This document shows, piece after piece, positions 40,082 to 64,000 of a DNA stretch of 64,000 nt. Where the stretch lies: contig NZ_VFMJ01000001.1 of assembly GCF_006715005.1 (NCBI RefSeq), positions 4,216,001 through 4,280,000 on the forward strand. The letters are read 5' to 3'. How positions within the stretch are numbered: the first letter of the stretch is position 1; each line of letters begins with the position of its first letter. Made by a program: the position numbers and the translations under genes. This DNA comes from Serratia marcescens. GTDB taxonomy: Bacteria; Pseudomonadota; Gammaproteobacteria; Enterobacterales; Enterobacteriaceae. The notes beneath the pieces are model-generated. The model was given only the letters and a program-made list of their open reading frames with translations. It ran no database searches and was not told the DNA's origin.

Positions 40082-40942
40082 TCAGGCTTTCTCTTCGGAA
40101 AGCAGCGCCCACCAGCTGTCGATGGTCGGGTTGCGCGCCAGCGCGATAAAGTCGATGTCGCCGCGGATCTTGCGCCAGCGGGTCGCCAGCTCCATGATGC
40201 GCACCGAATCCAGACCGTAATCGATCAGGTTCTCATCGTTGCCCATGTCTTCGCTGTCTTCGTCCAGCAGCGGCAGGATCTGCTGACGCAGCGCGTCGAT
40301 GCTGGCGATGCCGGCCGCCGGCAGCAGAGACGCGGTGGTCACCACCCGGCCGCAGCGGCCGGCGGTATAGCGCAGCGCCATCAGGTGTTCGTCGCGCGAG
40401 AAGTCCGCCAGGCCGTCGGCCACCATGAACGGCTGGATGTTGCGCATGAAGGCGTCGATGGCGGTGGTCAGGCAGCCGATGTGCGCATACACGCCGCAGA
40501 TGATCAGCTGATCGCGGCCGGACTCCTGCAGGATCTCCTGCAGCGGCGAGCGGTGGAAGGCGCTGTAGCGCCATTTCACCAGCACCGTGTCGTCTTCGTC
40601 CGGCGCCAGCGCGGCGGTCACCGCCTGCTGCTCGGGGTGTTTGTTCAGGCCCGGCCCCCACATGTCGTTCAACAGCGCGCGGTCTTCATCGCTCTGCTGG
40701 TTCGGCTGCGCGGTATAGAACACCGGAATGCCCTGCTGTTTGCAGTAGCGGCGCAGGTTGGCGATGTTCTCCACCACCTGTTTGATCAGCGCGCTGTCTT
40801 CGCCCCAGAAATTGAGGAAATACTGCTGCATATCGTGGATCAGCAGCGCGGCGCGCTGCGGTTCTACCTGCCAGGTGACTTTATTTTGCGGCAGTTCGTC
40901 CGCCGTCGGCAGCGCGTAGTCATTAAGTTTTGGAATGGCCAT
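40082..40942 (-). CDS. entB: isochorismatase / aryl carrier protein EntB
   Basis: 286 residues. N-terminal isochorismatase domain (about 30-205; active-site Asp in [10 protein letters not shown], Lys in VKWRYSAF, Cys in IGCLTTA region) turns isochorismate into 2,3-dihydro-DHB. The C-terminal aryl carrier domain (about 215-286) has the phosphopantetheine Ser in GLDSVRIM. It carries DHB to EntF and probably to the second NRPS locus. Three bp after entE. Confidence 0.96.
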
Positions 40943-40945
40943 CGA

Positions 40946-42574
40946 TTAATCTCCCTGAGCCTGAGTCTGTAGTTGCTCGTCGAGCTGCTGACGCAGCCGT
41001 TTTTTGTCCACTTTGCCGACCGGAGTCAGCGGCAGGCTGTCCACCTGAATAAAACGATCCGGCAGTTTGAAGTCCGCCACGCCCTGTTCGCGCAGGTGGC
41101 GGCGCAGCACCACCGGCTTCAGCGGCGCGTTGGCGATGATATAAGCGCAGCTCTTCTCCCCCATCAGCGCGTCCGGCATCGACACCAGCGCGGCGTTGAT
41201 CACGTCCGGATGACGCAGCAGCAGGTTCTCGATTTCCTCGGCGGCGATCTTCTCCCCGCCGCGGTTGATCTGGTCTTTCTGCCGCCCCTGCACGGTGATG
41301 TAGCCGTCTTCGCTGATGCTGATCAGATCGCCGGAGCAGTAGAAACCGTCGGCGTCGAAGGCATCGGCGTTGTGCGCCGGGCTCTGGTAGTAACCGCGGA
41401 AGGTATAAGGCCCGCGCGTCATCAACCGGCCGACCTCGCCCGCCGGCAATGAATTGCCGTCGTCGTCCGCCACCCACACTTCGTCATCCGGCGACATCGG
41501 CCGCCCTTGCGTCGTCAGGATGTGGCGCTCGTCGTCGTCCAGCCGGGTGTAGTTCACCAGCCCTTCCGCCATGCCGAACACCTGCTGCAGTTGGCAGCCG
41601 ATTTCGTTCTGAATACGCGCCGCCAGCGTTTCGCCCAGCTTGGCGCCGCCCACCTGCAGCAGTTTCAGGCTGGCGAGCTGGGCATTGCCGCCCCACTCTT
41701 CGATCGCCTGCAGCCACAGCGTGACCGCCGGCGGCACCAGCGCCGTCACGTTGATTTGGTGCTGTTCGATCAGGCGGAAGCACTGCCCGGCGTCCGGATC
41801 GGCGGCGAACACCACCAGCCCCGCGCCATAAAACACGCCCAACACGCCCGGCGAGCTCATCGGGTAGTTGTGCGCCACCGGCAGCGCGCACAGATAGCGG
41901 GTCTGCGCGTCGAAACGGCAGATCTCCACGCTGCGGCGAATGCTGTAGTAGTAGTCATTGTGGGTACGCGGGATCAGCTTCGGCGTACCGGTGCTGCCGC
42001 CGGAAAGCTGGAAGAACGCCACCTGATCGGCCGCAGAAGGCTGCGCGACGAAACCCTCGCTGGCTTCGTCCAGCCAGGCGGCCAGCGCCAGCTCACCCTC
42101 GGGCTGGCTGCGCAGCGCCACGACACGCAGCGAAGGATGCGCATCGCGGAAGGCGTTCAGGAATTGGTCGTCGGCAAACAGCGCGTGCTGGCGGTCGGCG
42201 ATCAGCAGCGCCGGCTTGATCTGCTCGGCATAGGCATTCAGTTCGCTGCGCTGATGGCTGAACAGCGCGTTGACCGGCGCCACGCCAATCTTCAGCAGCG
42301 CGAAGAACACGATATAGAACTCCGCCACGTTGCCCAGTTGGACCAACGCGGTATCGCCGGATTTCACGCCGCGGCGCAGCAGAGCGGCCGCCAGGCGATC
42401 GGAGCGCTGCTGCAGCTCGCGGTAGGTCAGGCTGCCCTGGGCATCGATAATCGCCGGGGCGTCGTTGTTGGCCTGGCGGTCGAGGATCTCGGTCAGCGGC
42501 TTGTCAGTCCAGTAGCCGCGCTCGCGATAGCGGCTGGCGAACTCCGCCGGCCAGGGGGTAAAGGCAATGCTCAT
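40946..42574 (-). CDS. entE: 2,3-dihydroxybenzoate-AMP ligase EntE
   Basis: 542 residues, full-length stand-alone adenylation enzyme. P-loop [18 protein letters not shown] (about 190-207), core motif [10 protein letters not shown], and the catalytic Lys near the end in [15 protein letters not shown]. It activates DHB and loads it onto the EntB carrier domain. Seven bp after entC, three bp before entB. Confidence 0.96.
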
Positions 42575-42581
42575 CTTGTCG

Positions 42582-43787
42582 TTATCCTTGATTCATACCA
42601 AAGGCACGCAGAATGGTGCTGAGTTTGGTGCCTGTTTCATGCCATTCAGATTCGGGTGAAGAGTCTTCCACGATGCCGGCGCCGGCGAACAGCCGTACCC
42701 GGTTGCCGTCAACGGTGCCGCAGCGGATAGTCACAACCCACTCGCCGTTGCCTTCGTCGTCGCACCAGCCGACGATGCCGCCGAACAGGCCGCGATCGAA
42801 CGGCTCCAGCTTGCCGATCAGGGCGTGCGCCTCGGCCGTCGGCATGCCGCACAGCGCCGGCGTCGGGTGCAGCAGGCAGGCCAGCGACAGGGCATTTTCG
42901 TCTGGAGACGCCGCCTCGCCGTCGATCGGCGTGGAGAGATGCCACAGCGTCGTGGTGGTCAGCAGTTCAGGGGTTTGCGGCACGTTCAGGTAGCGGCAGC
43001 GGCCGGCCAGCACGTCACGCATGCTTTCGGTGACGATGCGATGCTCGTGGCGATCTTTCGCCGAGGCCATCAGCCGCTCCCCCACTTCGCGATCGCGCTG
43101 CGGGTCGGCCTCGCGCCGGGCGGAACCGGCCAGCGGGTTAGAATAGAAACGGCCGTTGTCCTGGCGCAGCAGCAGCTCTGGGCTGGCGCCCAACAGCGCA
43201 CCCTGCTCCAGCGGCACATGGAAATGGAAACCATGCGGGTTCTGGGCAATCACGCGCGCCATCAGCGCATGGCGATCCACCGGCTGGCGCGTTTCGATCT
43301 CCAGCAGGCGCGACAAGACCACTTTATCCAGCTCACCGGCCTTCATCGCGTCGACGGCGTCGCTGACCATCTTCATAAACGGCTGCTGCGGCGGCAGCTC
43401 CGTCACGCCGGCCAGTTCAGGGCCGTTCGCCGGCGGCCGAACGCCGGCCATAAAGGCGGCGCGATCGAACCAGCGGCTCTGCTGCGGAATAAACAGCGCC
43501 GAAGGCTGCCGGGTATCGAACGGGATGGCACCGCACAGCAGCGGTTTTTTGATACCGGCCTGACGGGCCTCGACAAACGCCTGCCGCACGCTGCGCTGGA
43601 ACTCGCCGTTCAGGTCGGCGCCGTCTGCGGCCGGCAGGCGAATGCGGCTGAAACAACCGGTAGTGGTCAAGCTGCGGAAAGGAGAGGTAAAGAAGAAGCC
43701 CGACGCCGGAGAAAAATCAGCGGCGAACCGGTGTTCTTCGCACTCCTGCATTTCCTTTCGATTGATGTCGTTCACGGCAGTATCCAT
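42582..43787 (-). CDS. entC: isochorismate synthase EntC
   Basis: 401 residues. Chorismate-utilizing domain about 125-395 with [20 protein letters not shown], the [10 protein letters not shown] motif and [19 protein letters not shown] near the end, which bind chorismate and Mg. It starts the DHB branch. Its promoter carries a Fur-box-like site 37 bp upstream. Slightly longer at the N terminus than E. coli EntC. Confidence 0.95.
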
Positions 43788-43823
43788 CGCTTCGCCCTCA
43801 AGGATTTGAAGTGATAACCAATA

Positions 43824-45256: not shown

Positions 45257-45333
45257 CGGTTGTTCACCACATCTTTAAACGGGGATTCTGCAGTTGCGGA
45301 GCGCTATGCTAGCACAGATGACGAAATCAATAA

Positions 45334-45348
45334 TGATAATAAAAATCA
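45334..45348 (-). promoter_or_regulatory. Fur box upstream of entS
   Basis: TGATAAT-A-AAAATCA matches 12 of 14 arm positions of the 7-1-7 consensus and lies 78 bp before the entS start. Confidence 0.65.
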
Positions 45349-45373
45349 TTGATATTCAATTGTGAGCAACCGC

Positions 45374-45432: not shown

Positions 45433-48400
45433 TTACAGCGTGCGCAAGATCCGGTTCAGCAGCGGCCCCAGCACTTTGAACGACGCCGGCGAAACGATAT
45501 CGACATGCGCGCAGTCCAGCTCGTGCGCCTGCAGCGCATCGACGTACTGCGACCAGGTCTGCTGCACGTCCATCCCTTCCTGCAGCGTACGTTTGGCGAC
45601 GAACAGCGTCGCCTGGCCATGGAAACGGGCGGTACGCGTGTGCGACAGCAACCGCACCGAATCGGCGTAGTTAGCTTCGATGTTGTCGAACATCGCCGTG
45701 CGCGTCTCGCCCAGCGCCGGATCGAGCGTATCCTGCGACACCGCCAGGAACTGCTCGCGCTCGCGCTGCACTTCCTTCAACACGTTGTCGTCCAGCATCA
45801 CGTCCCAGTTTTGGGTCTCCGGCGGATAGGTATCCAGCAGGCCGAGGAACGCCACCTGCTCGCCGCGCGCCTGCAGCCGGGCGGCGATGCCCTGGGCCAG
45901 CGTGCCGCCCAGCGAGTAGCCGATGAAGTGGTACGGCCCGTGCGGCTGGACCTGCAACACCGTCTGCAGGTGGGCATCCACCACCTGATCCATATCTTCG
46001 CTCAGCGCCAGCGGGCCGTCCGGCCGCGGCGACTGGATACCGACCAGCGACCAGTGCTGATCGAGATAGCGTGGCAATACGCTGAACTGCCAGGAGAAAC
46101 CGGACGCCGGGTGCAGACAGAACAGCGTCGGCCCCTCGGTGACGCGCAGCGGCAATACGCTGTCGAAGCCGCTACGATCGGCCTCTTCCTGCGTGCGTTC
46201 TTCCGCCAGCAAGACAGCCAGTTGCTCGACGCGCGACGCCACCATCACCTGGCCGACGGACACCGCCTTGCCCAGATCGCGGCGCAGCTCCGCCGCCAGC
46301 CGCATCGCCAGCAGCGAATGGCCACCGAGCGCGAAGAAGTCGTCATCGGCGAACACCTGCTCGCGCTGCAGCAAACGGGCGAACACCGCCGCGATCTCGC
46401 TTTCCAGCCCGGCCTGCGGCGGCCGTCCTGCCTTGCGCTCACCGCCCTGCGGCTGCGGCAAGGCCTTGCGATCCAGCTTGCCGTTGGCGCTCAGCGGCAA
46501 ATCACTCATTTCCACCAGCGCCACCGGCACCATGTGCGGTGGCAGACGGTCGGCCAGCGCCGCACGCAGGGCTTCCGCATCCCAGTTCGCGCCGGGCTGC
46601 ATCACCAGATAACCCACCAGTTGGCGCGCATCGCCGCCGGCATCCACCGGCGTGCCCTGCAGCACCAGCGCGTGCGTCACCGCCTGGCGCACGCCCGGCA
46701 GCGACAGCAAGGCGTGGTCGATTTCGCTCAGCTCGATACGCTGCCCGCGGATCTTCAGCTGGTCATCACTGCGGCCCAAATATTCCACCGTGCCGTCCGG
46801 CAGCCAGCGCGCCACGTCGCCGGTGCGGTACATGCGCCCGCCCTCGCCGAACGGATCGGCGACAAAGCGGCTGGCGGTCAGATCCGGCCGGCCAAGGTAG
46901 CCGTGCGCCAGCTGCACGCCGGTCAGATACAGATCGCCCGCCACGCCCGGCGGCACCGGCCGCAGGCGCGCGTCAAGAATACGCAGCCCGGTGTTCCATA
47001 CCGGCAGACCGATCGGCACGTTGGCGCCGGTCACTTTCGCCAGTGTGTCGCCGTAAGCCGGATGCCAGGTCACGTCCACCGCCGCTTCGGTCGGGCCGTA
47101 GAGGTTGTGCAACGGCACCGCCGTGCGGCTTTGCCACAGGCGGCACAGCTCCGCCGGCAGCGCTTCGCCGCTGCAGAACACCTGGCGCAGCGCAGCGCAG
47201 TTCGCCACCGCCGCGTCGTCGTCCAGGGCGGCCACGAAGGCCGCCAGCATCGACGGCACGAAGTGCAGCGTGGTAATGCGGTGTTGTGCGATCAGCTGTT
47301 GCAGCTGCTGCGGATCGCGGTGCGCCTCCGGCGGCGCCATCACCAGCCGGGCGCCGACCATTAGCGGCCAGAAGAATTCCCACACCGAGACGTCGAAACT
47401 GCACGGCGTTTTCTGCAGCACCGCGTCGTTCGCCCCCAGCGGATACTGGTGTTGCATCCACAGTAGGCGGTTGACGATCGCCTGATGGCCGACCAGCACG
47501 CCTTTCGGGCGCCCGGTGGAGCCGGAGGTAAAGATGATATAGGCCGCATGGTCCGGCGTCGGGCCCGCGATCGCCACCCCGGCGGCGTGATCGGCCGCCA
47601 GCGGCGCGTCATACAGCAAAATTTCGCCCTTGTCGGCGAAACGCGCCTGCTGCGCCGGGTTGGTGATGACCAGCCGGGGCGCGGCGTCTTCCAGCATCAT
47701 CGCCAGCCGCTCGTCCGGATAACCGGTGTCCAGCGGCAGATAGGCGGCGCCCGCTTCCACGATCGCCATCAACGCCAGCGACAGAAACACCGAACGCGGC
47801 AGCGCCACCGCCACGATGTCGCCCGGCCGCACGCCCTGCGCCACCAGCTCGCGCGCCAGCGCCGTAACCTGCTCGCGCGTTTCGCGGTAGGTGAAATTGA
47901 AATGCGCATCCGCCAGCGCCGGTGCGTCCGGCGTGGTTTGCGCCTGCTGCGCCAGCAACTGGCTCAGCGTGGTCGCCGGCACCGGGTGCGCCGTGTCGTT
48001 GACCCGCGCCAGCAGCGCGTGATCGTCTGCAGTCAGCATATCGGCTTCGCCGATCGGCAACGTTGCCTGCGCGGCGAACTGCGCCAGCAGCAGCGGCAAT
48101 CGTTGCAGGTGCGCCTGCAATTCCTGGCGGCTGTAACGCTCGGCGTTGGCCAGCAGTTCAACCTTCAGCTGATGGTGTTCGTCAATAAACAGCGCAATCT
48201 CCAGATCGCGCACCGGCCCGGAGGCCAGATCGTGGGTAATGCCTTCGATACCGGCGAAATCCAGCTGGTAATCGAACATTTTGAAGTTGAAGACCGTGCC
48301 GTACAGCGGTTCGCCGTCGCCGATGCGCCCCAGATCGCGCTGCACCTGTTCGGCGTCGTAGCGCTGATGGCGACGCACCGTTTTCAGCTCGCGACTGATG

Positions 48401-49377
48401 CGGGTGGCGGCCTCATACAACGTGGCCTGCGGCTCGAGGTGCATCTCCATCGGCAACACGTTGATCACCGGGCCGGCGGCGCACAAGGCGGCCGATCCGG
48501 TGCGGCGCATGAAGATAAAACCGGCGCTGAAGCTCGGTTGGCCGCTCAGGCGCGATACCCACAGCGCCACCAGCGCCACCGCCATATCGGCGGCGTTCAG
48601 CTTCTGCTGCGCGCCACGCTGCACCAATTCGGCGAAGGCCTGCGGATCGCAGCGCTGTTCCAATCGATGGATACGCGGCGTGGGCGTTTGCCCGGCCAGC
48701 GGCTGCGGGCAGAGCGTGGCCGGCGGCGGCAGTTGCCGCGCTTTTTCGCCCCAGAAATCGGCGTCGCGTTGCCAGGCCGGCGCCTGCCGGTAAGCCTGGT
48801 ATTCCGCCACCACGTCGCTGAACGCCGTGAAAGGCGTCGGTTCCAGCGCGTCGCCGCGGCAAAGATGGGAGTAAATCGCCGCCACGCGGCGAGCGATGGC
48901 GGTGAAGCTGAAACCGTCCACCAGCAAATGGTGATAGCGCTGATACCAGAACCAGCGATCATCCGCCAAACGCATCACCACATGGCGATACAGCGGTGCG
49001 CCGCTGCCGGCGCGCAGATCGCTTGCCAGATCGATGTCCATCAGCGCGCGCGCGGCGGCGTCGGGATCCGGCGACGTCGTCAGATCGACAAGTTCCGGCT
49101 CGTGCACCGCCAGCGCATCGTCCAGCCATTGCACCGGCACGCCGTCGCGTTCCGCAAAACGCAGGCGTAGCATGTCCACCTCGCCCAGGCCCTGGATGAT
49201 GGCCCGCAGCAGAGGCTCCACGGCGACAGGGCCGTTGAGTTCGATGGCATGTGCGACCGCGTAGGCATTGCGATGCGGGGAGATTTGATCGGCGACCCAG
49301 ATGCCGGGTTGCGCCGCGACCAGCGGCCATTCGCCCGCAAGCGCCGGGCCGCTGAGAGAGTTAGGGGTGTGTGACAC
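45433..49377 (-). CDS. entF: enterobactin synthetase component F (NRPS C-A-T-TE)
   Basis: 1314 residues from GTG at 49377 (GGAG 9 bases upstream). Condensation domain about 15-445 with HHLLVDG; adenylation domain about 460-965 with FTSGSTGRPKG, FDVSVWEFFW and NLYGPTEAAVDVT, residues I read as the Ser-type pocket of E. coli EntF; carrier domain about 990-1055 with GGHSLLAM; thioesterase about 1075-1314 with GYSLGG. It joins DHB to Ser and cyclises the trimer. Full domain set, no breaks. Confidence 0.96.
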   Translation of the reverse strand: MSHTPNSLSGPALAGEWPLVAAQPGIWVADQISPHRNAYAVAHAIELNGPVAVEPLLRAIIQGLGEVDMLRLRFAERDGVPVQWLDDALAVHEPELVDLTTSPDPDAAARALMDIDLASDLRAGSGAPLYRHVVMRLADDRWFWYQRYHHLLVDGFSFTAIARRVAAIYSHLCRGDALEPTPFTAFSDVVAEYQAYRQAPAWQRDADFWGEKARQLPPPATLCPQPLAGQTPTPRIHRLEQRCDPQAFAELVQRGAQQKLNAADMAVALVALWVSRLSGQPSFSAGFIFMRRTGSAALCAAGPVINVLPMEMHLEPQATLYEAATRISRELKTVRRHQRYDAEQVQRDLGRIGDGEPLYGTVFNFKMFDYQLDFAGIEGITHDLASGPVRDLEIALFIDEHHQLKVELLANAERYSRQELQAHLQRLPLLLAQFAAQATLPIGEADMLTADDHALLARVNDTAHPVPATTLSQLLAQQAQTTPDAPALADAHFNFTYRETREQVTALARELVAQGVRPGDIVAVALPRSVFLSLALMAIVEAGAAYLPLDTGYPDERLAMMLEDAAPRLVITNPAQQARFADKGEILLYDAPLAADHAAGVAIAGPTPDHAAYIIFTSGSTGRPKGVLVGHQAIVNRLLWMQHQYPLGANDAVLQKTPCSFDVSVWEFFWPLMVGARLVMAPPEAHRDPQQLQQLIAQHRITTLHFVPSMLAAFVAALDDDAAVANCAALRQVFCSGEALPAELCRLWQSRTAVPLHNLYGPTEAAVDVTWHPAYGDTLAKVTGANVPIGLPVWNTGLRILDARLRPVPPGVAGDLYLTGVQLAHGYLGRPDLTASRFVADPFGEGGRMYRTGDVARWLPDGTVEYLGRSDDQLKIRGQRIELSEIDHALLSLPGVRQAVTHALVLQGTPVDAGGDARQLVGYLVMQPGANWDAEALRAALADRLPPHMVPVALVEMSDLPLSANGKLDRKALPQPQGGERKAGRPPQAGLESEIAAVFARLLQREQVFADDDFFALGGHSLLAMRLAAELRRDLGKAVSVGQVMVASRVEQLAVLLAEERTQEEADRSGFDSVLPLRVTEGPTLFCLHPASGFSWQFSVLPRYLDQHWSLVGIQSPRPDGPLALSEDMDQVVDAHLQTVLQVQPHGPYHFIGYSLGGTLAQGIAARLQARGEQVAFLGLLDTYPPETQNWDVMLDDNVLKEVQREREQFLAVSQDTLDPALGETRTAMFDNIEANYADSVRLLSHTRTARFHGQATLFVAKRTLQEGMDVQQTWSQYVDALQAHELDCAHVDIVSPASFKVLGPLLNRILRTL

Positions 49378-50970: not shown

Positions 50971-51063
50971 AACGCCTACCCATTTTGTAGTTGGCGGCAC
51001 CGGGAACGTCGACTTTTCCCTATCGCCGGCCACCGCCCGAACGCACTGTACGCCAAATACTAT

Positions 51064-51078
51064 TGATAATAATTTGCA
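51064..51078. promoter_or_regulatory. Fur box between fes and fepA
   Basis: TGATAAT-A-ATTTGCA matches 12 of 14 arm positions of the 7-1-7 consensus. It lies 94 bp before fes and 177 bp before fepA, in the shared divergent promoter region (50,971-51,254), as in E. coli fes-fepA. Confidence 0.7.
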
Positions 51079-51254
51079 TTTGCAATAGTGTGTAAGGCTT
51101 GGAGATCGTGCTGGTATTGCGCGCAACGGACAGGGATCGGGGATACATCAATGGCATCCCTTGCCGCAGCCGATTTTCTATTTCCGACTACACAAAAACT
51201 ACAACCGCCCTTCCCCCCGTTCGGCGAGGGATGGCAGCAAGGTAGGACACTCAG

Positions 51255-53595: not shown

Positions 53596-54828
53596 TTACC
53601 TGGTGTGCAGCTGAATGCGCACCACGCTTTCCGGCTTGCCGGCCTTGGTGGAAGCGCCGTCGTTTTTCACCGTCACAAACAGCGCGTCACCTTTCGGATC
53701 CAACGCCAGGCTGTTAGGGTGCGGCGGCAGGTCTACGGTTTGCAGGCGTTTAAGCGTTTTGGCGTCGAACACCGTCAGCGTCCCGGCGCCGTGATCCACG
53801 CGCACGCCTTTGCGGTTGGCGACATACAGCCGCTGGCTGCGTTCGTCGAGCAGCAGGCCGATCGGCACCTCATCCGTCAGCTCGCTGGCCAGCACTTTGC
53901 CGCTGTCCGCATCCAGCGCAAACACCCGGTGGCCGCTGCTGCGCTTCACGTAGTCGTGCCCCAGATGATGGTTGCGGTAGTCGTCGCGATCGATACCCTG
54001 ATCGACGCCCAGCAGGCGATTGCTCGCCGGGTCATACACCAGGTTCAGCAGCTGATCGGCCTGCACTTCGTGCGTGGCGGTGATCGCCAGCGTGTCGGCG
54101 TTCAAGGTGATCACCTGCCCCTGCATGTTGGAGACGAACACCCGGCGGCCCTTCTCATCCAGCGTGATACCCACCGCGTTGTAGCCGAAGCCCGGGATCA
54201 CTTTCTCCAGCTTGCCGGCTTTGGTATCGACCACGTACAGCACGCTGTCGACGCCGAAGCCCAGGCCCGGCAGGAACAGGCGGCCGCTTTGCGCGTCATA
54301 CTTGAGCTCGCGGAGGCGGTACAGGTAGTCCTCGGTGATTTTGAATTTCTTCAGCTCCGCCAACAGGAAGTCCAGGCGCTTGCCGCTGATGCCCGCCTGC
54401 TTGTAAGCCTGCTCCAGCACCGCTTTGTCCAGCAGCTTGATGCTGCCCAGCGCGTGGTTGGTGGTGGTGTCCACCACCCCAACTTCGCCGTTGAAAGCCT
54501 GCGTCAGGTACAGGCGATTGCCCGCGTCGTTCAGCGCCACGCCGAAGCCTTTCACCTGCAGCGGGATCTCTGCCTTGATCGCCAGGGTGTTGGGATCCAG
54601 CCGCAGCACGCGGGAGCGCGCCTCTTCTTTCCAGTCCGGCGCGCTGACGAACAGCGCCTGTTGCGAGGTGCTGTAGGCCATCTCCACCACCGTCGACGAC
54701 AGCGCCTCGCGCTTGATGTCCTGCGGTTTGATGCCGACATCGTCCGCCTGCGCGGCGCCGGCGACCACCAGAGAGGCCGCCACCAGCAGCGACAGTAGCG
54801 CGCGCGGGGTTGCTAGGGTTCCAGACAT
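53596..54828 (-). CDS. YncE-like periplasmic beta-propeller protein, second copy
   Basis: 410 residues from ATG at 54828, preceded by AAGGAG at 8 bases and followed by a signal peptide (cleavage near AQA-DD). Propeller repeats (FGVALNDAGNRLYLTQAFNG; DEKGRRVFVSNMQGQVITL) resemble the copy at 38,956, but with an extra segment about 110-150. It is the last gene after the C-T-C NRPS protein and so appears tied to the second siderophore locus. Confidence 0.83.
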   Translation of the reverse strand: MSGTLATPRALLSLLVAASLVVAGAAQADDVGIKPQDIKREALSSTVVEMAYSTSQQALFVSAPDWKEEARSRVLRLDPNTLAIKAEIPLQVKGFGVALNDAGNRLYLTQAFNGEVGVVDTTTNHALGSIKLLDKAVLEQAYKQAGISGKRLDFLLAELKKFKITEDYLYRLRELKYDAQSGRLFLPGLGFGVDSVLYVVDTKAGKLEKVIPGFGYNAVGITLDEKGRRVFVSNMQGQVITLNADTLAITATHEVQADQLLNLVYDPASNRLLGVDQGIDRDDYRNHHLGHDYVKRSSGHRVFALDADSGKVLASELTDEVPIGLLLDERSQRLYVANRKGVRVDHGAGTLTVFDAKTLKRLQTVDLPPHPNSLALDPKGDALFVTVKNDGASTKAGKPESVVRIQLHTR

Positions 54829-54875
54829 CCTTTTATCTCCTTGAAAATCATGCTTTCGGTTAGAGTGAAACAACG

Positions 54876-57785
54876 TCATGCCTGCGGCCCGGGCGGCAGC
54901 GCCGCCAGAGCGATATCGCCAGCGATGTGCTGCGCAAACTGGGTAAAGACGTGCTGAACGCCATCGGCGATCAGATTGGCCTGCTCCCGGCTGTAGTGGT
55001 CCTGACGGTAGGTCATCATCACCCGCAGGGATTTCTTCCCGGCCAGATCGTCTTCCATCACCTCAAACTGCAGGCCGAGCAGCGATTCGGCTTTCTCCGG
55101 CTCCACCTGACGGTAGGCGATCGCACTGCCGTCCTGCAGCCGGAACTCGCCGTTCAGCTTGATGCGGCTGTGGATCTGGATGAACACTTCGAACATGTGA
55201 TTCTTGCGGTCGGCGTCCACGCCGAACAGCCCTTCTTCCACCAGATCGATCGGAATGTCGGTGTACGGCAGCGAGCCATTGATGGTGTTTTTCACCTGGC
55301 TGACCAACCCGGCCACCGTCAGCCCTTCGTCAAAGCGCACGCGGTGCACCACCACGGTGGTGAAATAGCCGACGGTATCGAAGAACTCGGCGTCGTTACG
55401 GCCGGAGGTTGAGGTGCCCACCAGCAGATCCGCCGGGCCGCCCAGCAGACGCAGCGCCGAGGTAATCCCGGCATACACCACGTTAAACAGCGACGCGTTG
55501 TTGCGGCGGGCAAGCTGATACAAGCCTTCCGCCACGGCAGGATCGACCTCGAACTCCAGCCAGCCGCCGTTGACGTCCGCCGGTGCCGGCACCGCCGGAT
55601 GGGTGGACGCTTCTTGCCGGAAGATCGGCTGGCCGACCGGCGCGCCGCGCAGCGCATCGAGCCAGTAGTCCAGATGTTGCTGCTGCACCCCGGAGGCCCG
55701 CTGCTGCCGGGCGAAGGTGTGGAACTGCGGCGGCTGCCCGCTCCACTGCGGCGCCTGGCCGACGACGCGATGGCGATAGGCGACGCCCAGCTCATCCATC
55801 ATCAGGTTGAGCGACCATTCATCCAGCACCACATGGTGGAACAGCAGCGACAGCAGCTGTTGGCCGTTGTCCGCATCGCGCAGCAGCGTGGCGCGCAGCG
55901 GCAGCTCGGCGGCCAGATCGAACCGGTGCTGGCCGGCGTCGGCCAACAGGGCCGCGGCATTACCCGCTGGCGTCTCGTGAGAGAAGCGGAACCACTGATA
56001 ATCCGGCAGTTCTGCGGCCGGCACCACCACCTGCACCACCTCCCCCTGCTGCTCGACAAAGCGTGAACGCAGCACGGTATGGCGAGTCATGACGTCGATA
56101 AACGCCTGGTGCAGCGCCGTTTCGTCCACCGCATCGAAGAAGCGCAGAGAGAACGGCAGGTTGAAAATCTCGTCATGGCCGAAGGCTTCATACACCTTCC
56201 ACAGCGATTCCTGCGCCAGCGACAGCGGCGCCTGCGCCCGATCATGATCGTCGGCGATGGCTACCGAGGCATTCGGCTGCGCGACGTTCAGGCGTTTGGC
56301 GTAGCCCGCCAGCCCGCGCGCCGTCGGATGGCTGAACAGATCGTTAATGTTGATTTCGATCTGATGCAGGCTCAGCAAGCGGCCAATCACCCGGGTAGCG
56401 ACCAGCGAATGGCCGCCGCGATCGAAGAAGTCTTCATCGAGGGTCATTTCCGGCGCTACCAGCGCCTCACGGAACTCCTGCAAAATCAGCGGCGCAACGC
56501 TTTCGTCGGCGTCGCCGTTCGCCACCGGCGCGGCCATCGCCGGGGAAACGGCCTCAGCCACCGGCAAGGCGACGGCAATTCGCTGCCCGGCCAGGAACGC
56601 GCTGAACTGCTCCAGCAGGAAAGGCGCCGCGTGCGGAGACAGGCGCGGGTCGGTGACCAGCTCCAGCGTCAGCGTTTCTGCCTCCGGCAAGCCCAACAGC
56701 AGCGCCAGTTCAAACGGCGTATGCAGCGGCGGCAGCAACAGGCGTTCGGCGTGAACGCCTTCCAGCCGCCACTCTGCGGCCAGATCGTCGCGCCAGGCCA
56801 CCAGCAGCTGCGCCCGTTGCGGATCCAGCTGTTCAGCCACGGCCTGCGCCAGCAGCCGCTGCCCGATGTCGCCCTCGCCATGCTGCACGGTCAGGCGCAT
56901 CAGCGGCGCCGCCGTCAGGCCCAGCTCCAGACCGACGCACTCCGCCGTTTCTGCGGCCGGCACGCACAGCTGCACCGTTTGGCCACCGGCCTGCGCGGCG
57001 ACGAACTCGGCAAACCGCGCCGCCACCGCCGCCAGCAAGGCCCGCGGCGTGTCGTTGGCGGGCAACAGCGCGCGCGCAATGCGCGTGACCACGCGCGCGC
57101 CCACCGGCGGCAAGGCTTCAGCACGCTGCGCCGGGCTGCGGTAATCCTGCAGCGAGACCGCCTGGCGCGCCCAGGGCAGCTGCGGCTCCGGGATTTCCGG
57201 CAGCTCGACCGGCTCCGCCGCGAATGGCAGAGGCATCGCATCCCCGTTATAACGGGCGGACAGCATCGCCGGCAGGTGGCGCCACGGCAGCGTTTCCGCC
57301 AGGATGTCATGCAATACCACGCCCAAAATCACGTCATCGCCCGGCGTGAGCAACAGCAGGCAGCGCAGCGGCGCTTCGCTTTCCAGTTCAAACGGCGCCG
57401 CCTGCGCCTGCAGCAGGCAACAAATGGCGTGTGGTTCGCCCGCCACCTGACGGAGGCTCACCGGCAGCGGCGCCGAGCCGGCGGGCCGTTTCACCAGACC
57501 GTTTTCGTCATCAAAAACGTAATGCACGTCCACGCCCGGCGTCTCCCGCACCAACGCCTGCAGCGCCGCCGTCAGTTGGGCGACATCCACGCCCCCCGTC
57601 AGGCGCCAGGCCAGCGCCCGCTGCCCGCGTGCGTCACCCTGCTGCAGATGGGTAAACCATGCCCGCTCTTCGGCTTCGCTTACCGGCCGCTCGCCGTTCG
57701 CCGACGCCGCGCCCAGCGCCTGAAAAGCGTTCTCCAGCCGCTGGGCCTCTTCATCGCTCAGAATGCTGTCAAAATCACCGATCAC
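54876..57785 (-). CDS. NRPS protein with C-T-C domains (VibF C-terminal half-like)
   Basis: 969 residues from GTG at 57785 (AAGGAG 8 bases upstream). Domain order: a condensation-like domain (about 40-430) whose active-site motif reads VLHDILAET, lacking HHxxxDG; a carrier domain (about 432-510) with GGHSLVAT; a second condensation domain (about 525-969) with HHVVLDEWS, keeping HHxxxD. No adenylation or thioesterase domain. This is the C-T-C arrangement of the VibF C-terminal part, where the last C domain joins the oxazoline-bearing acyl chain to an amine. The upstream receptor gene ends 77 bp before. Confidence 0.88.
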   Translation of the reverse strand: MIGDFDSILSDEEAQRLENAFQALGAASANGERPVSEAEERAWFTHLQQGDARGQRALAWRLTGGVDVAQLTAALQALVRETPGVDVHYVFDDENGLVKRPAGSAPLPVSLRQVAGEPHAICCLLQAQAAPFELESEAPLRCLLLLTPGDDVILGVVLHDILAETLPWRHLPAMLSARYNGDAMPLPFAAEPVELPEIPEPQLPWARQAVSLQDYRSPAQRAEALPPVGARVVTRIARALLPANDTPRALLAAVAARFAEFVAAQAGGQTVQLCVPAAETAECVGLELGLTAAPLMRLTVQHGEGDIGQRLLAQAVAEQLDPQRAQLLVAWRDDLAAEWRLEGVHAERLLLPPLHTPFELALLLGLPEAETLTLELVTDPRLSPHAAPFLLEQFSAFLAGQRIAVALPVAEAVSPAMAAPVANGDADESVAPLILQEFREALVAPEMTLDEDFFDRGGHSLVATRVIGRLLSLHQIEININDLFSHPTARGLAGYAKRLNVAQPNASVAIADDHDRAQAPLSLAQESLWKVYEAFGHDEIFNLPFSLRFFDAVDETALHQAFIDVMTRHTVLRSRFVEQQGEVVQVVVPAAELPDYQWFRFSHETPAGNAAALLADAGQHRFDLAAELPLRATLLRDADNGQQLLSLLFHHVVLDEWSLNLMMDELGVAYRHRVVGQAPQWSGQPPQFHTFARQQRASGVQQQHLDYWLDALRGAPVGQPIFRQEASTHPAVPAPADVNGGWLEFEVDPAVAEGLYQLARRNNASLFNVVYAGITSALRLLGGPADLLVGTSTSGRNDAEFFDTVGYFTTVVVHRVRFDEGLTVAGLVSQVKNTINGSLPYTDIPIDLVEEGLFGVDADRKNHMFEVFIQIHSRIKLNGEFRLQDGSAIAYRQVEPEKAESLLGLQFEVMEDDLAGKKSLRVMMTYRQDHYSREQANLIADGVQHVFTQFAQHIAGDIALAALPPGPQA

Positions 57786-57824
57786 TGCGTTATCTCCTTG
57801 CCCGGCCGTGCCGGGATAGCGCAT

Positions 57825-57849
57825 AAAACGGGGGACATTCGTCCCCCGT
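57825..57849 (-). terminator. hairpin after the second TonB receptor gene
   Basis: Stem ACGGGGGAC / GTCCCCCGT, loop of four, followed by TTTT on the minus strand. It lies between receptor and NRPS genes (77 bp), so it may act as an attenuator that lets receptor transcripts exceed NRPS transcripts. Confidence 0.75.
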
Positions 57850-57862
57850 CATCGCGATAGCG

Positions 57863-59956
57863 TTAGAAATTCAGCTCAACCGCCGCGCCGACCAGACGGC
57901 CTCGCTGGAGAGTCGCCGTGTAGATGTCGTTGCTTCTGACCATCTCACGGCGGTCTGAATCAAACAGGTTTTTCGCATACAGCGTGGCGCGACCGTAGTC
58001 GAAGGTGTAAGCCAGCTGAGCGTTGGCCGTCCAATAGGAGCCGATGCGCCCGCGCGAGTCGTTGTCGTATTGCGAATAGTAGGAGTCGGTAAACGCCACG
58101 TTGCTGCTCAGCTCCCATCCTTTCAGGAACTGATATTTGGCACCCATGTTGGCGGTGTAAGCCGGTGCGCGCGCCAGCTCATGCCCTTCCACGCCGCTGC
58201 CCGAGAACTTCTTGATGTCGGTTTTCAGCAGGCCGAGGTTGCCGAACAGTTCGAAGTCCCAACGCGGCTGCCAGGTGGCGCCGATTTCCGCACCGTAGGT
58301 TTCCACCTTGTCGGCGTTACGGATCACGCTGGAGTTCTCACCCAACGAGTACGGCAGCTGCATGTCTTTGTAATCGTTGTAGAAGATGTTACCCGTCAGC
58401 ACCACGTTGGCGTCTTTCAGGTGATGGCGGGTGTACAGCTCATAGTTCCAGACATACTCGGAACCGTAGGTATAGCTGACCACCGGCGTACCGATCGTGA
58501 TGCCGCCGCCGCCGGCGTTATAGCCGCGGGCGATCTTGGCGCCGTAGGTTTGGGTATCCGTCGGTTTCCAGGCCACGTCCAGCTTCGGCAAAAACACGGT
58601 GTAAGTTTCATCGAAGTCGATACGCACCGCCTGGCTGCCGCCGTCGCGGCGACGGTGTTCGCGTTCCAGGCGGCTGGCGGCGGTCACGTCCACCTGCGGC
58701 GTCAGCGCATAGGTCAGCTCGGCGAACGCCGAATGGGTATCGGTTTTATCTTTGAAGGTCGATCCGCCGAAGATGTTGACGAACTCATCCTGCGTACCGT
58801 GGAAGTAACGCAGCCCCGCCAGCCCATGCAGACGGCTGTCCGCACCGCCGAAACGCACCACCGGCTCTACGTGAACTTCCTGGCCGTCGATCTCGGCGTA
58901 TTGGATGTTGTAAGCGGTCGGACGGTTGATGTTGAAATCGGTATAGATAACGCGGTTTTCAAACGTCAGCGCATCGGAGGCCTCCCAGGCCAGATCCCAG
59001 ATGCTGCTGTTCATGTTGCTTTTGAACACGGCGCGGCGCGGATCGTGACGCGGGTTGGTCGGATGCGGCTGCGGGTTGAGGCTTTCGTTCTGTGGCGCGG
59101 TGCTGCCGAAGTGGTTAAAGGTCAGCTTGGTGGTCAGATCGCGCAGGCCGGCCGGATTGAACAACAGCTTGGCACGGGCGGTGGTGGCTTCCACTTCGCG
59201 CGGATCGCCCACCGGCGCATAGGCCGGCAGATCGGCTTCGCTGCGGCGCCGCTGGCGATCGACGCTGACGCGGAACGCCAGCTGATCCTCCACCAGCGGG
59301 CCGGACGCCATGGCGGCCAGCTGTGAAGAGTGCTGGTTACCGGCCCCACCCTTGAAGGCGCTTTCCCACTCGAAGGTCGGATCTTTACTGGCCATGACGA
59401 TGGCGCCGGCGATGGCGTTGCGCCCCTGGATGTAGCTTTGCGGGCCGAGGAACACTTCGACGCGATCCAGATCCCACAGCGACTGCGGGCCGAACGCCTG
59501 TTCGTTATAGGTCAGCGAGCGGCCGTCCAACGACAGATTGAGGCGCGGGCGGGTGCCGCTGAGGAAGGCATTGGCGCCGACGTTCGGGCCGGAACCGTCG
59601 ATGCCGCGCACGGTCGGCAGTTCGTTGCCGATGCCCAGATCCACCACGTTGGGGGTCATGCGCAGCAGATCGGGGATCTGCACTGCGTCAGGCATCGAGG
59701 CGATGCGGTTGCTGTCGAACACCTGCACGCTGGAGCCGGTGTCGAAAATGGAACGTTTGATCTTCTCACCGGTGACCAGCAGCGTTTCCGCGTCCTGGTA
59801 GGTTTCGTTGCTCTTGGTTTCCGCCGCGTTGACGTTACCGATCGCCAGTGAACAAACCCCTAAAAATACGGAGGAAAACGCCCCAATGGCTTTCAACCCC
59901 GCTTTTTCCCCGTTTCCTACGCTTTCATGCCGTTGAGCCGCAAAATGCTTGCCCAT
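57863..59956 (-). CDS. TonB-dependent siderophore receptor, second locus
   Basis: 697 residues. Signal peptide (cleavage near VNA-AE), TonB-box region ETLLVTGEK, plug about 60-190 (PDAVQIPDLLRMTPNVVD; NVGANAFLSGTRPRLNLSLDGR split), barrel to the C-terminal aromatic (AAVELNF). The plug differs strongly from FepA. Its place next to VibF-like NRPS genes suggests it takes up the ferric form of their product, as ViuA does vibriobactin. It is preceded by Fur-box-like sites. Confidence 0.9.
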   Translation of the reverse strand: MGKHFAAQRHESVGNGEKAGLKAIGAFSSVFLGVCSLAIGNVNAAETKSNETYQDAETLLVTGEKIKRSIFDTGSSVQVFDSNRIASMPDAVQIPDLLRMTPNVVDLGIGNELPTVRGIDGSGPNVGANAFLSGTRPRLNLSLDGRSLTYNEQAFGPQSLWDLDRVEVFLGPQSYIQGRNAIAGAIVMASKDPTFEWESAFKGGAGNQHSSQLAAMASGPLVEDQLAFRVSVDRQRRRSEADLPAYAPVGDPREVEATTARAKLLFNPAGLRDLTTKLTFNHFGSTAPQNESLNPQPHPTNPRHDPRRAVFKSNMNSSIWDLAWEASDALTFENRVIYTDFNINRPTAYNIQYAEIDGQEVHVEPVVRFGGADSRLHGLAGLRYFHGTQDEFVNIFGGSTFKDKTDTHSAFAELTYALTPQVDVTAASRLEREHRRRDGGSQAVRIDFDETYTVFLPKLDVAWKPTDTQTYGAKIARGYNAGGGGITIGTPVVSYTYGSEYVWNYELYTRHHLKDANVVLTGNIFYNDYKDMQLPYSLGENSSVIRNADKVETYGAEIGATWQPRWDFELFGNLGLLKTDIKKFSGSGVEGHELARAPAYTANMGAKYQFLKGWELSSNVAFTDSYYSQYDNDSRGRIGSYWTANAQLAYTFDYGRATLYAKNLFDSDRREMVRSNDIYTATLQRGRLVGAAVELNF

Positions 59957-60185
59957 AGATGTCTTCTCCTTTCATCCCAGAGGTGCACAAAATTTGATTT
60001 TTTTTTACACAACCTACATCGACACTCACACAGACCATGACGCTACGGCCTTCCCGACCTTTCTGTTGCTTATCCCTGCGGCAAACCCATGTCTTTCGCG
60101 GCCAAACGGGCGCGGCCCCGTCCACAGCCAAGCCGCCGGCGGAGCGGCCGGCAGCTTGTATAAAAACGTAAAATAATGTTAAGAA

Positions 60186-60223
60186 TGATAATATTTTGCA
60201 TTTTCTAATGCAAATCATTATCA
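60186..60223. promoter_or_regulatory. tandem Fur-box-like sites, receptor side
   Basis: TGATAAT-A-TTTTGCA (60,186-60,200, 11 of 14 arm matches) and TGCAAAT-C-ATTATCA (60,209-60,223, 12 of 14) lie 23 bp apart start to start, about 230-265 bp ahead of the receptor start. Confidence 0.65.
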
Positions 60224-60415
60224 ATAAAGGTGTGAAGCAGGCCGCGATAGCCGCCAGAAAACCTTATACTTTCGCAGGTAAAACAGGCGCTGCAATAACA
60301 AGCAATCATTACAATGCTAAGAATAATATAGATAAATTATTCACACCCAACGGCATGCCCGTCCGTTCTCGCTAAAACCCCTTATAGATAGCACCCTCGC
60401 GTCAAATGGATCAAA

Positions 60416-60430
60416 TAATAATAATTTTCA
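60416..60430 (+). promoter_or_regulatory. Fur-box-like site upstream of the Cy gene
   Basis: TAATAAT-A-ATTTTCA, 12 of 14 arm matches to the 7-1-7 consensus, 61 bp before the ATG at 60,492. Confidence 0.65.
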
Positions 60431-60491
60431 TTCCTATTAACATTTGGATATATTCTTGCAATCTCGTTGGCTGAATCAAAATGGATACCCG

Positions 60492-62102
60492 ATGAAAGCT
60501 TTGACCACGATGCAGGCCGCCTATTGGGTAGGCCGACAGTCCGCTCCTCCCCTCGGCGGCATGGCCGCCCACCTGTATGCGGAATTCGACGGCGGCGAGC
60601 TGGATCTCGCCCGGCTGCGCCAGGCCGTCGAGGCGCTGTACCTGCACCATCCGCTGTTACGCCTGCGCATTACCGATGATGGCCGGCAGACGATCGCGCC
60701 TCCCGGCCCTCGGCACGCCTTGCATCTCGACGATTGGCAGCACGCCGATGAAGCAACGCTGGCAGCCGCACTTGCCGCCAAACGCCAGGCAAAAAGCACC
60801 CAGCTGCTGCCGCTGGAACAGGGCGTGCCCTGCGATATCAGCCTGAGCCTGTTGCCGGAAGGGCGCAGCCGCCTGCATGTCGATCTCGACATGATCGCCG
60901 GCGATGCCATGAGCTTTCGCCTGTTGATGGAGGATCTGACGGCGTTTTATCACCGGTGTCCGCCGCCCCCCTCCGATGACGCGCCACCGGCCTACTTCGA
61001 ACACCTCGAACGACGCGACGCCGACGACGGGCTACGCCAACGGCGCGAACGCGGCCAGCGTTGGTGGCGTGAACGCCTGGCGCAGGTGCCGCCGGCGCCG
61101 CGCCTGCTGCGCACGCCGGACCGCTGCCGCAGCGATCGCCTGGCCGTACAGCTGAATGCGGAAGAAAGCCGCGCGTTGGAAAGCGTCGCCAAACGGCACC
61201 ACACCTCCCTCTCTACGCTGTTTCTCGCGCTGTTCGCCCTGGCCGTCGGCCAGGGTTGGAATATGACGCGCTTCCGGCTCAACGTGCCGCTGTTCCACCG
61301 CGAGAGCGAACGGGAGGACGCGCATCGCCTCATCGGCGATTTCTCTAACCTGGTGCTGCTCGGCGTGGAGCTGAACCCGACGGAAAATCTAAGCGCTTTC
61401 TGCCGACGCCTGATGGCGCAGCTGGCGGAGCTTATCGAGCATGCGGATTACCCCGGCGTGAGCGTAATGCGCGATCTGTCGCGCCTGCACGGCAGCCTGC
61501 AGCCTTCGCCGGTGGTGTTTACCGCCGGTTTCGGCATCCGCGGCAAGACGCTGTTTTCCGAACGGGTCACCGACACCTTCGGCCGTCTCGGCTGGGTCAT
61601 CTCTCAAGGACCGCAGGTTGCGCTGGATGCGCAGGTCGCCCACGTCGACGACGGCATTCTGATCAACTGGGACGTACGGCAGGACGCGTTCCCCGAGCAG
61701 GTGCTGCCGCGCCTGCTGGCCTGTTACCGGGCGCTACTGCACCTGGCCGCACGGCAAACGGAGGCGTTCGATCGCCCGCTGTCGCAGCTGTTGGCGCAAT
61801 GTACGCCCGACGCGCTGGCGCAGCAGGCGCCGGTGCGCCAGGTGCTGCACCGGCTGCTGACGCGGGTGGCCCCCGAGGCAGGCTTGCACGACCACGACGA
61901 TATCCACCGCTTGGCCCTGCCGGATGCCGGGGTGAACGCGCTGCTGACGGTGCTCAACAAGTATCTGGCGGCGGCGCTGACGGCACAGGATCTGGCGGCG
62001 CACTCCTCCCCTGCGGCGCTGGCGGCATTGATCTGCCAACGCTCGCCCGAGGCTGGACGGAATGCGAAAACGCTGCTCGCCGCGTTGGCGCCGCAGCACT
62101 GA
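60492..62102 (+). CDS. stand-alone NRPS cyclization (Cy) protein with degenerate carrier-like tail
   Basis: 536 residues from ATG at 60492; this start aligns with the start of the next gene (LTTMQAAYWVGR / LTALQQAYLLGR). Cyclization domain about 1-430 with DMIAGDAMS, an exact DxxxxDxxS motif, so heterocyclization of Ser/Thr is expected. The last 90 residues are carrier-like (NALLTVLNKYLAAALTAQDL then SPAALAAL) but where GG(H/D)S should be reads LPDAGVNA, without the Ser for phosphopantetheine. It resembles VibF Cy1 cut out as a separate protein. A TTG start at 60444 is unlikely. Confidence 0.85.
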   Translation: MKALTTMQAAYWVGRQSAPPLGGMAAHLYAEFDGGELDLARLRQAVEALYLHHPLLRLRITDDGRQTIAPPGPRHALHLDDWQHADEATLAAALAAKRQAKSTQLLPLEQGVPCDISLSLLPEGRSRLHVDLDMIAGDAMSFRLLMEDLTAFYHRCPPPPSDDAPPAYFEHLERRDADDGLRQRRERGQRWWRERLAQVPPAPRLLRTPDRCRSDRLAVQLNAEESRALESVAKRHHTSLSTLFLALFALAVGQGWNMTRFRLNVPLFHRESEREDAHRLIGDFSNLVLLGVELNPTENLSAFCRRLMAQLAELIEHADYPGVSVMRDLSRLHGSLQPSPVVFTAGFGIRGKTLFSERVTDTFGRLGWVISQGPQVALDAQVAHVDDGILINWDVRQDAFPEQVLPRLLACYRALLHLAARQTEAFDRPLSQLLAQCTPDALAQQAPVRQVLHRLLTRVAPEAGLHDHDDIHRLALPDAGVNALLTVLNKYLAAALTAQDLAAHSSPAALAALICQRSPEAGRNAKTLLAALAPQH

Positions 62103-62166
62103 GATCGGTTTCCGGGCGCGCGGCGCCCGGCTCGTTTTAATCGGTTAGCGACTATAGGGAAGTACC

Positions 62167-64000
62167 ATGGAGACACCATTAACCGCACTGCAGCAGGCCT
62201 ATCTTCTGGGCCGCAGCGATCGATGGCCGCTGGGCGGCGTGGCGATGCACGACTTTCGCGAATACCGCGCCCGGCAGCTGGATGTACCGCGCCTTGAAGC
62301 GCGCCTGACCGAGCTGGTTCAACACTACCCGGCACTGCGCACCTGCATCGATGTGCCACGCGGCACGCAGCACGTACGCCCGGAAACCACGCTGCATCTG
62401 GATCGCCACGATCTGCGCGCCCTTGATGGCGAAGCGGCGCAGCGCCAGGTCGAACAGCTGCGCGCGCGTTACTCCCACCAGCGCCACGATCCGAGCCAGC
62501 CGCTGTGGCGCATCGCCGTGATCCAACTAGCCGAACGGCAGGATCCGACGGGATCGCCGTACGATACGCTGATCTTTACCAGCTTCGATGCCTTGATCCT
62601 CGACGGCCAGGGGATCTCCACAGTGATCGCGCGCCTGTTCGACGATCGCCCTCTGACGCCGACCACCGCCACGCTGCCGCCCCCCGCCGCATCAGCGGCG
62701 CAGCGCCAGACCGATGCCGCCTACTGGCGCGAAAAGCTGCAGGATGTCACCACCCCGTCGGCGTTGCCGTGGCGCGCCCCGCTCGCCAATCTCACCTCAT
62801 CACGCTATCGCCGCGCCACCCTGACGCTGCCGCGCGATACGATAAAACAGCTCGGCCGCCTGGGATCGCCGCATGCGCTGCTGCGCAACAGCCTGCTCTC
62901 GGCGCTGATCCTCGATACGCTGGCCCACTGGACCACCGACGGCGAGCTGTGCGTCGGGGTACCGGTGGCGTTCCCCGCCGCCGACGGCGCCCTGGGCAAC
63001 GCCTCCAGCTTCGTGGCGGTGCGCTATTCGCGCTACGGCGAAGACTTTATCCAGCGCGCACAAGCCTTGCAGGACGACGTGCTCGGCGCGCTCGATCACC
63101 TGGCATTTTCCGGCGTCGATCTGGCGCGGCAATTGCTCGGCCAAAGCCAGGGCGGCCCGGCGCTGCCGGTGATCCTGACCAACTGCCTGGGCTGGGAGAC
63201 GCTGCCGGCCGAGGCGCCGGTGCGCTTCCACGACGGCCTGACCCAAACGCCGCAGGTCGCCATCGATATCCGCCTGACGCTGGACAGCGAAAAAAACCTG
63301 CAGCTGTGCGTGGACTACGCCGAGCAGGCGCTGCAGGGTGAACAGGTAGAAGCGATGCTGGCTGCGTTGCAGCGACGCATCCTGCACAGTTGCCAACGGG
63401 CCGACCTGGCAATCGCGCCGCGCGACTTCATCGATCTGGCGCATTACCGCCACAACGACAGCGAAGCGAATTACGCGCCTTATCCTTATCTGGCGCAGCT
63501 GGCCGAGCGGCTGTTCGGCGCGCAAGACGGCGGCAATGCGCTGATCTGCGGCGAACAGACGCTGACCTATCGTGAGCTGGGCCAGCGGATCGCCACGGCG
63601 ATCGTCAACCTGCAGAGCCGCGGCGTGCAGCCGGGCAACGTGGTGGCGCTGTACCTGCCGCGCAGCCCGGAACTGATCATCTTCAGCCTCGCCTGCGCCC
63701 TGCAGGGCGTGATCTGGGTACCTGTCGATATCAACTCGCCGCCTGAACGCACCGCCTACCTGCTGGAGAATTGCCGGCCGACGCTGGTGGTGCACGGCGG
63801 CGATCTGGAGACGCCGAACGGCGTGACGCCGGCGACCCTGCTGGCGCAGGCGGATCGCGCGCCCGCGCTGCCGGATGAACGGACGCTGGTTGAACGCAGC
63901 GCCAGCCAGGCCGCGAGCTACTACCTGTATACCTCCGGTACCACCGGCAAGCCCAAATGCGTGGTGCTTAACAACCGCGCCACCGCCAACGTTATCCACC
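62167..64000 (+). CDS. NRPS Cy-A protein, 3' end outside window
   Basis: 611 codons from ATG at 62167 without a stop. Cyclization domain about 1-430 with FDALILDGQG (DxxxxDxxG; the usual Ser is Gly), then the start of an adenylation domain (LTYRELGQRIA; VALYLPRSPELI; YLYTSGTTGKPK at the edge). The specificity residues lie outside, so the substrate cannot be read; Thr is expected if the VibF comparison holds. 64 bp after the Cy gene, same operon. It corresponds to VibF Cy2-A. Confidence 0.88.
   Translation, partial: METPLTALQQAYLLGRSDRWPLGGVAMHDFREYRARQLDVPRLEARLTELVQHYPALRTCIDVPRGTQHVRPETTLHLDRHDLRALDGEAAQRQVEQLRARYSHQRHDPSQPLWRIAVIQLAERQDPTGSPYDTLIFTSFDALILDGQGISTVIARLFDDRPLTPTTATLPPPAASAAQRQTDAAYWREKLQDVTTPSALPWRAPLANLTSSRYRRATLTLPRDTIKQLGRLGSPHALLRNSLLSALILDTLAHWTTDGELCVGVPVAFPAADGALGNASSFVAVRYSRYGEDFIQRAQALQDDVLGALDHLAFSGVDLARQLLGQSQGGPALPVILTNCLGWETLPAEAPVRFHDGLTQTPQVAIDIRLTLDSEKNLQLCVDYAEQALQGEQVEAMLAALQRRILHSCQRADLAIAPRDFIDLAHYRHNDSEANYAPYPYLAQLAERLFGAQDGGNALICGEQTLTYRELGQRIATAIVNLQSRGVQPGNVVALYLPRSPELIIFSLACALQGVIWVPVDINSPPERTAYLLENCRPTLVVHGGDLETPNGVTPATLLAQADRAPALPDERTLVERSASQAASYYLYTSGTTGKPKCVVLNNRATANVIH

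Follow-up and report, generated by a model that had tools for sequence, protein, structure and literature searches.

In VibF of Vibrio cholerae, a single polypeptide on which cyclisation (Cy), adenylation (A), condensation (C) and carrier (T) domains follow one another as Cy-Cy-A-C-T-C, the second Cy domain (Cy2) is described as performing condensation and the first (Cy1) heterocyclisation, while the second C domain (C2) makes the final transfer and the first (C1) is non-catalytic with a role in dimerisation (PMC5577590). In Serratia plymuthica V4, the serratiochelin genes schH, schF2, schF1 and schF3 are given as AHY05888, 05889, 05890 and 05892 (PMC5635690), and disruption of schF3 or schH in this strain is reported to abolish serratiochelins and photobactin (PMC7962358). 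For Serratia marcescens SM6, a single cluster is described that holds schF0, schF3, schF1 and schF2 as EG355_01020, 01045, 01055 and 01060 (PMC6498229). Here we compare with these systems a 64,000-bp stretch of S. marcescens DNA (the window, positions 4,216,001-4,280,000 of contig 1 in the 5.57-Mb, two-contig genome that we searched), whose right-hand end carries three synthetase genes, F1, F2 and F3, next to a gene for a stand-alone condensation protein, H. A sequence-only reading of the window had proposed that a VibF-like assembly line is divided here over three genes, and had pointed to serratiochelin biosynthesis in Serratia, with its split F proteins.

F1, F2 and F3 are very probably the parts of a serratiochelin-type synthetase, predicted to couple an oxazoline, made from 2,3-dihydroxybenzoate (DHB) and threonine, to a diamine; the threonine is likely handed over in trans from F2 to the F3 carrier. 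In BLAST comparisons with VibF (P0082, 2,418 amino acids), the three proteins covered the reference end to end, F1 matching residues 2-448 at 45.0% identity, F2 residues 459-1427 at 49.0%, and residues 48-976 of F3 the C1-T-C2 portion (1427-2400) at 40.7%. Judged from these alignments, the homologies are full-length and chance is excluded. Since the cross matches are far weaker (F1 to Cy2, 24.6%; F2 to Cy1, 24.2%), Cy1 is represented here by F1 and Cy2 by the Cy domain of F2. The motifs agree: F1 keeps DxxxxDxxS as does Cy1, the Cy domain of F2 keeps both aspartates and lacks the serine as does Cy2, and in F3 as in VibF a degenerate C1 is followed by one T domain and an active-type C2 with HHxxxDE. 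In F3, these parts lie at about 48-430 (C1), 448-508 (T, with GGHS) and 531-970 (C2, with HHVVLDE); Pfam recognised the latter two as PP-binding and Condensation over the same residues and had no match in the N-terminal half, which is homologous to VibF C1 and has likewise lost HHxxxDG. Eight of nine A-domain pocket residues are shared (F2, D-M-F-C-A-G-L-I-W; VibF, D-M-F-V-A-G-L-I-W), as read by eye in an alignment with EntF. Thus all six VibF domains recur in the same order, and H is VibH-like, with VibH (1l5a) at the top of its 16 PDB matches (E 3.8e-65) and a HHILVDG motif. What differs is that they occupy three proteins instead of one, and that F1 and F2 bear end domains that VibF lacks.

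The open reading frames (ORFs), Pfam and the VibF alignment all agree with the earlier placement of a Cy gene, a Cy-A gene and, on the opposite strand beside a receptor gene, a C-T-C gene. The start given for the first of these also holds: the ORF of F1 opens at a TTG (60,444), and homologues such as P0127 (536 amino acids) begin at the ATG at 60,492. The label Cy-A for F2 was right as to these two domains and missed a third, a serine-less carrier-like domain that follows them. Beyond position 64,000, F2 runs on for 1,262 bp and is followed by H; a full C-A-T-TE module (TE, thioesterase), the outcome that the sequence-only reading had named as speaking against it, is not there.

The only intact carrier was correctly located on F3. 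Genome-wide, PF00550 gave 18 matches at E ≤ 0.001, one of them in F3 (window positions 56,301-56,486) and none in F1 or F2, so that the A domain and the sole usable carrier reside on different proteins and the divided line needs carrier exchange in trans, as had been supposed. There are precedents for loading a carrier on another protein. For acinetobactin, BasA is described as loading threonine on the peptidyl carrier protein (PCP) domain of BasB and BasD as carrying two Cy domains (PMC12005286); by this description, A, Cy-Cy and PCP-C likewise sit on separate proteins, with the differences that both Cy domains stay together on BasD and that the amine partner is another. In anguibactin synthesis, AngR is reported to load the PCP of AngM (PMC5577590, PMC6836290), and the published description of AngR/AngN/AngM again places an A domain beside a serine-less PCP while the PCP of another protein is loaded, although the Cy domain of AngR is described as defective whereas that of F2 keeps both aspartates.

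The locus is the already published serratiochelin locus, here confirmed in one more member of the S. marcescens group, to which we assign the host because its F2 shares 98% identity with the Serratia bockelmannii S3 protein and 94-96% with those of S. nevei, S. ureilytica and S. marcescens. Genes and order are identical to those of sch cluster p2 (schH, schF1, schF2, schF3) of V4 and SM6: the V4 accessions run schH-F2-F1-x-F3, the receptor gene filling the gap here, and the SM6 locus tags agree as well. The identity given by the sequence-only reading thus fits what is described in PMC7962358, PMC5635690 and PMC6498229, and the synteny with S. plymuthica NBRC 102599, where F1, F2, F3 and H are 66-79% identical to the proteins here. 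One difference is that entF (schF0) lies in the same locus here, as the SM6 tags suggest for that strain, and in a separate cluster in V4. Within Serratia, the locus is real and ordinary. F2 led to 22 loci, 12 of them from Serratia, and all 12 Serratia loci fetched showed the order YncE-like, F3, receptor (minus strand), F1, F2 (plus), H (minus). F3 was present (E ≤ 1e-100) in 26 of 30 Serratia genomes, interrupted by a stop in one of them (G009); the four genomes without it are 1.5-3.6 Mb in size.

Several points weigh against this assignment. The published disruptions and products come from S. plymuthica V4 and not from the strain analysed here, and the S. plymuthica sequence that we aligned is that of NBRC 102599, in which a glycine replaces the serine of DxxxxDxxS in F1. 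E. coli given the S. plymuthica sch genes is reported not to have grown under iron limitation (PMC5635690), so the gene set may not suffice. Besides, the window genes examined include no entA, and the sole match over the cut-off in the genome (1,084,950-1,085,696) lies 3.18 Mb from entF.

We infer the following course of reactions for this strain. EntE would load DHB on EntB, the EntB-like, EntE and EntC-like block being the predicted source of the DHB on the aryl carrier, and H would acylate diaminopropane at one end. Threonine, activated by the A domain of F2, would be loaded by it on the F3 T domain; the Cy domain of F2 would form the DHB-Thr amide, F1 would cyclise it to the oxazoline, and C2 of F3 would transfer the oxazoline to DHB-diaminopropane; C1 would be inactive and may hold the dimer together. 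In Pantoea sp. A4 (L024 2,480-4,741), F3 has 753 amino acids and C1 is largely missing from it, so that this domain, to which VibF dimerisation is ascribed, is not needed everywhere.

Features of the serratiochelin-type locus and its surroundings (window positions)
Feature	Position	Strand	Basis and remarks
F3 (SchF3-like), 982 amino acids	54876..57824	-	ORF list; Pfam and VibF alignment; C-T-C
TonB-dependent siderophore receptor	57863..59956	-	85% identical to the copy in S. plymuthica NBRC 102599 (L019)
Divergent intergenic region	59957..60491	.	Between receptor and F1; Fur-box-like sites
F1 (SchF1-like)	60492..62102	+	One Cy with DMIAGDAMS, orthologous to VibF Cy1, plus about 100 amino acids
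C-terminal carrier-like helical domain of F1, without serine	61800..62102	+	Profile comparison; AlphaFold2
F2, 1,031 amino acids	62167..64000 (ends 1,262 bp beyond window edge)	+	Cy-A plus serine-less carrier-like C-terminal helical domain
VibH-like stand-alone condensation protein H	Next gene after F2, past window edge	-	PDB match
YncE-like beta-propeller protein	53596..54879	-	Start overlaps F3 stop by 4 nt (ATGA)
EntF-like C-A-T-TE (SchF0-like)	45433..49377	-	5.5 kb from F3
EntB-like (40,082-40,942), EntE (40,946-42,574), EntC-like (42,582-43,787)	40082..43787	-	Predicted DHB supply

What we add to the published locus is a comparison of the serine-less end domains across divided and fused lines. 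Although neither matches PF00550, both ends resemble carriers at the profile level: against a profile of 94 real carriers, the end of F2 scored 96.6% probability (E 4.9e-10, 76 columns) and that of F1 94.1% (E 1.3e-7, 78 columns), compared with 0.11-4.68% for the 15 windows of the same families that served as controls. An initial set of 97 carriers was discarded because it held two A-domain fragments from P0264, and one of eight control windows scored 97.4% against it; a stricter filter dropped both fragments together with one real carrier (P0246_2), upon which that control fell to 0.29%. The carrier serine is absent, the corresponding site reading FIAMGLKLPHIK in F2 and IHRLALPDAG in F1. AlphaFold2 modelled F1 with a mean predicted local distance difference test score (pLDDT) of 90.5 and helices at 455-475, 487-490, 494-508, 514-519, 523-533 and 537-548, and an F2 orthologue (L014) with a pLDDT of 87.2, a disordered linker (942-957) preceding end-domain helices at 959-972, 986-989, 993-1007, 1013-1016 and 1022-1030. 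Foldseek matches of both models came mainly from the Cy and Cy-A parts and so bear on these more than on the end domains.

To place these ends among relatives, we aligned 128 proteins (P0005, the best 120 of 495 matches, F2 and six locus ORFs), which were chosen by similarity and whose counts are hence not independent events. An end motif of the G-L-x-P-x-H type, a pattern composed after inspection of the sequences, occurred in 127 of the 128, VibF being the sole exception, and GG[HDN]S was found in the last 75 residues of none. Within the end domain, all 127 rows keep G, 125 keep L and 123 keep H. The stretch between the A-domain motif NGK and the protein end spans 93-130 residues in 119 of 120 others; VibF enters C1 41 residues past NGK, so that its A domain runs into C1 with no end domain between them. 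The start motif of Cy2 was located in 77 of 121 proteins, at 436-525 (median 456), the other 44 not being scored, and this position leaves no room in the 77 for an end domain of the F1 kind. P0072, the longest case and a candidate for an F1-F2 fusion keeping that domain, was rejected, its insert being a low-complexity linker. Of the 120 matches listed for F1-type proteins, 76 were chosen by length as stand-alone forms; they have 516-569 amino acids and a tail. Read by eye, this tail is the GLRPRHLK-type domain of F2 in seven of the 76, and one of them (P0194) runs into a second Cy domain. As side observations, P0208, P0213, P0217, P0222, P0223, P0225 and P0226 are short proteins with one Cy and a serine-less GLRPRHLK-type domain and without an A domain, and the F1-type matches listed include some Cy proteins of 930-965 amino acids.

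Among the relatives examined, serine-less end domains thus occur at the cuts and are missing where the line is fused, which makes them candidate docking domains. We tentatively infer, with well under even confidence, that they might be dedicated pseudo-carriers that let F2 dock with both F1 and F3 and that compete with or guide the live carrier of F3, and that fusion made them unnecessary in VibF. On that reading, divided VibF-type lines would be the common form and textbook VibF the exception. If the end domains do dock the proteins, a dead carrier fold would have found a new purpose, one that could be turned to the construction of split assembly lines. Some results speak against it. One position after the aligned serine column, 95 of the 127 rows have a serine (Serratia has a proline), and in some lineages, though not in Serratia, this shifted residue may be modified, as far as the alignment can tell. 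The alignment showed no conserved partner on F3. The N-terminal extension of F3 was considered for this role and rejected, being similar in the Serratia and Pantoea rows and not in L027, L028 and L029. As for described docking domains, Pfam (E ≤ 0.001), a general library and not a dedicated docking-domain set, recognised no such family in F1, F2 or F3, and our literature search established no paper as describing serine-less or inactive carriers used as docking parts.

Alternatively, the end domains could be decaying, harmless remnants of normal T domains, with F1, F2 and F3 meeting by diffusion, an explanation that falls only a little short of an even chance. The serine-less PCP of AngR is called non-functional in PMC6836290, and the F3 extension, with which they might have paired, shows no conservation in the Vibrio, Psychrobacter or Pluralibacter loci. 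Mean pairwise identity among 61 non-redundant rows cuts both ways: at 0.381, the F2 end domain falls below both Cy (0.458) and A (0.585), as expected of a remnant, yet clearly exceeds the linker preceding it (0.207; 347 pairs). Moreover, decay sits poorly with the near-invariant G, L and H and with a confidently modelled fold after a disordered linker.

It is unlikely that F1-F2-F3 arose by breakage of a one-protein, VibF-like ancestor. The boundaries of F1, F2 and F3 fall at VibF 448/459 and 1427, coinciding exactly with its domain borders, as breakage would have it. However, the one-protein form was represented only by V. cholerae P0082, that is, by one of the best 120 of 495 matches and by one of 25 among the matches listed that cover the joint. 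Vibrio xiamenensis (L027) has Cy-Cy-A plus a separate C-T-C; it resembles the locus here in H, the receptor and a Cy-Cy-A protein ending in the same serine-less domain, and differs in that F1 and F2 are fused (1,496 amino acids), Cy1 passing into Cy2 without an intervening end domain. The earlier term 'split' hence stands for the three genes and need not imply descent from VibF.

That the main product is instead photobactin or another diamine conjugate is very improbable, for although V4 is reported to make small amounts of photobactin from putrescine with the same genes, serratiochelins are put at >80% of its siderophores (PMC7962358) and S. marcescens F2-2 is described as yielding serratiochelins (PMC12193787).

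The enterobactin-type DHB genes of this genome are divided between two places. EntE, EntC-like and EntB-like proteins are encoded in the window, along with EntS, Fes and a FepA-family receptor, and entA lies elsewhere, after genes for an EntD-like transferase, which at 102 bits stayed under its cut-off, and for a second isochorismate synthase (entC); together these occupy G000:C1:1,083,108-1,085,696 (L036 8,767-11,700). Among the 26 F3-bearing genomes, EntF and F3 are 5.5-6.3 kb apart in 13, 2.5-4.2 Mb apart on the same contig in four and on different contigs in nine. Where entF adjoins F3, entA is 2.1-3.2 Mb from entF (ten genomes) or on another contig (three); in the other 13 genomes, entA is 9.2-9.6 kb from entF (11) or on another contig (two). 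Two Serratia clades thus show an exchange, with entF beside F3 and entA far away (13/26), or entA beside entF and F3 elsewhere (11/26; two cut by contigs), so that one siderophore pathway is divided between loci in two different ways.

Iron control of both divergent operons is likely, judging from two Fur-box-like sites between receptor and F1 with 14 and 15 of 19 matches (60,187 and 60,204); the same region has 13/19 matches at 60,411-60,417. Against the Fur-box consensus, the window held five sites of 15/19, compared with a mean of 0.2 in ten block shuffles. At ≤3 mismatches, no Fur box was found, sigma-70-like sites in the divergent region were no more numerous than in shuffles, and Rfam at gathering scores gave no match across 36,000-64,000. 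Clusters of Fur-box-like sites, in excess of the shuffles, were seen at 35,849, 43,819-43,843, 45,329-45,353, 51,059-51,083 and 60,172-60,228.

Elsewhere in the genome, another nonribosomal peptide synthetase of 2,853 amino acids (G000:C1:1,867,061-1,875,505) ends in a module about 48% identical to EntF. SM6 is described as having a chrysobactin-like cbsF (PMC6498229), which is possibly the same gene. The YncE-like gene adjoins F3 in the 12 Serratia loci as well as in Pantoea sp. A4, and the window holds a second YncE at 38,956-40,020.
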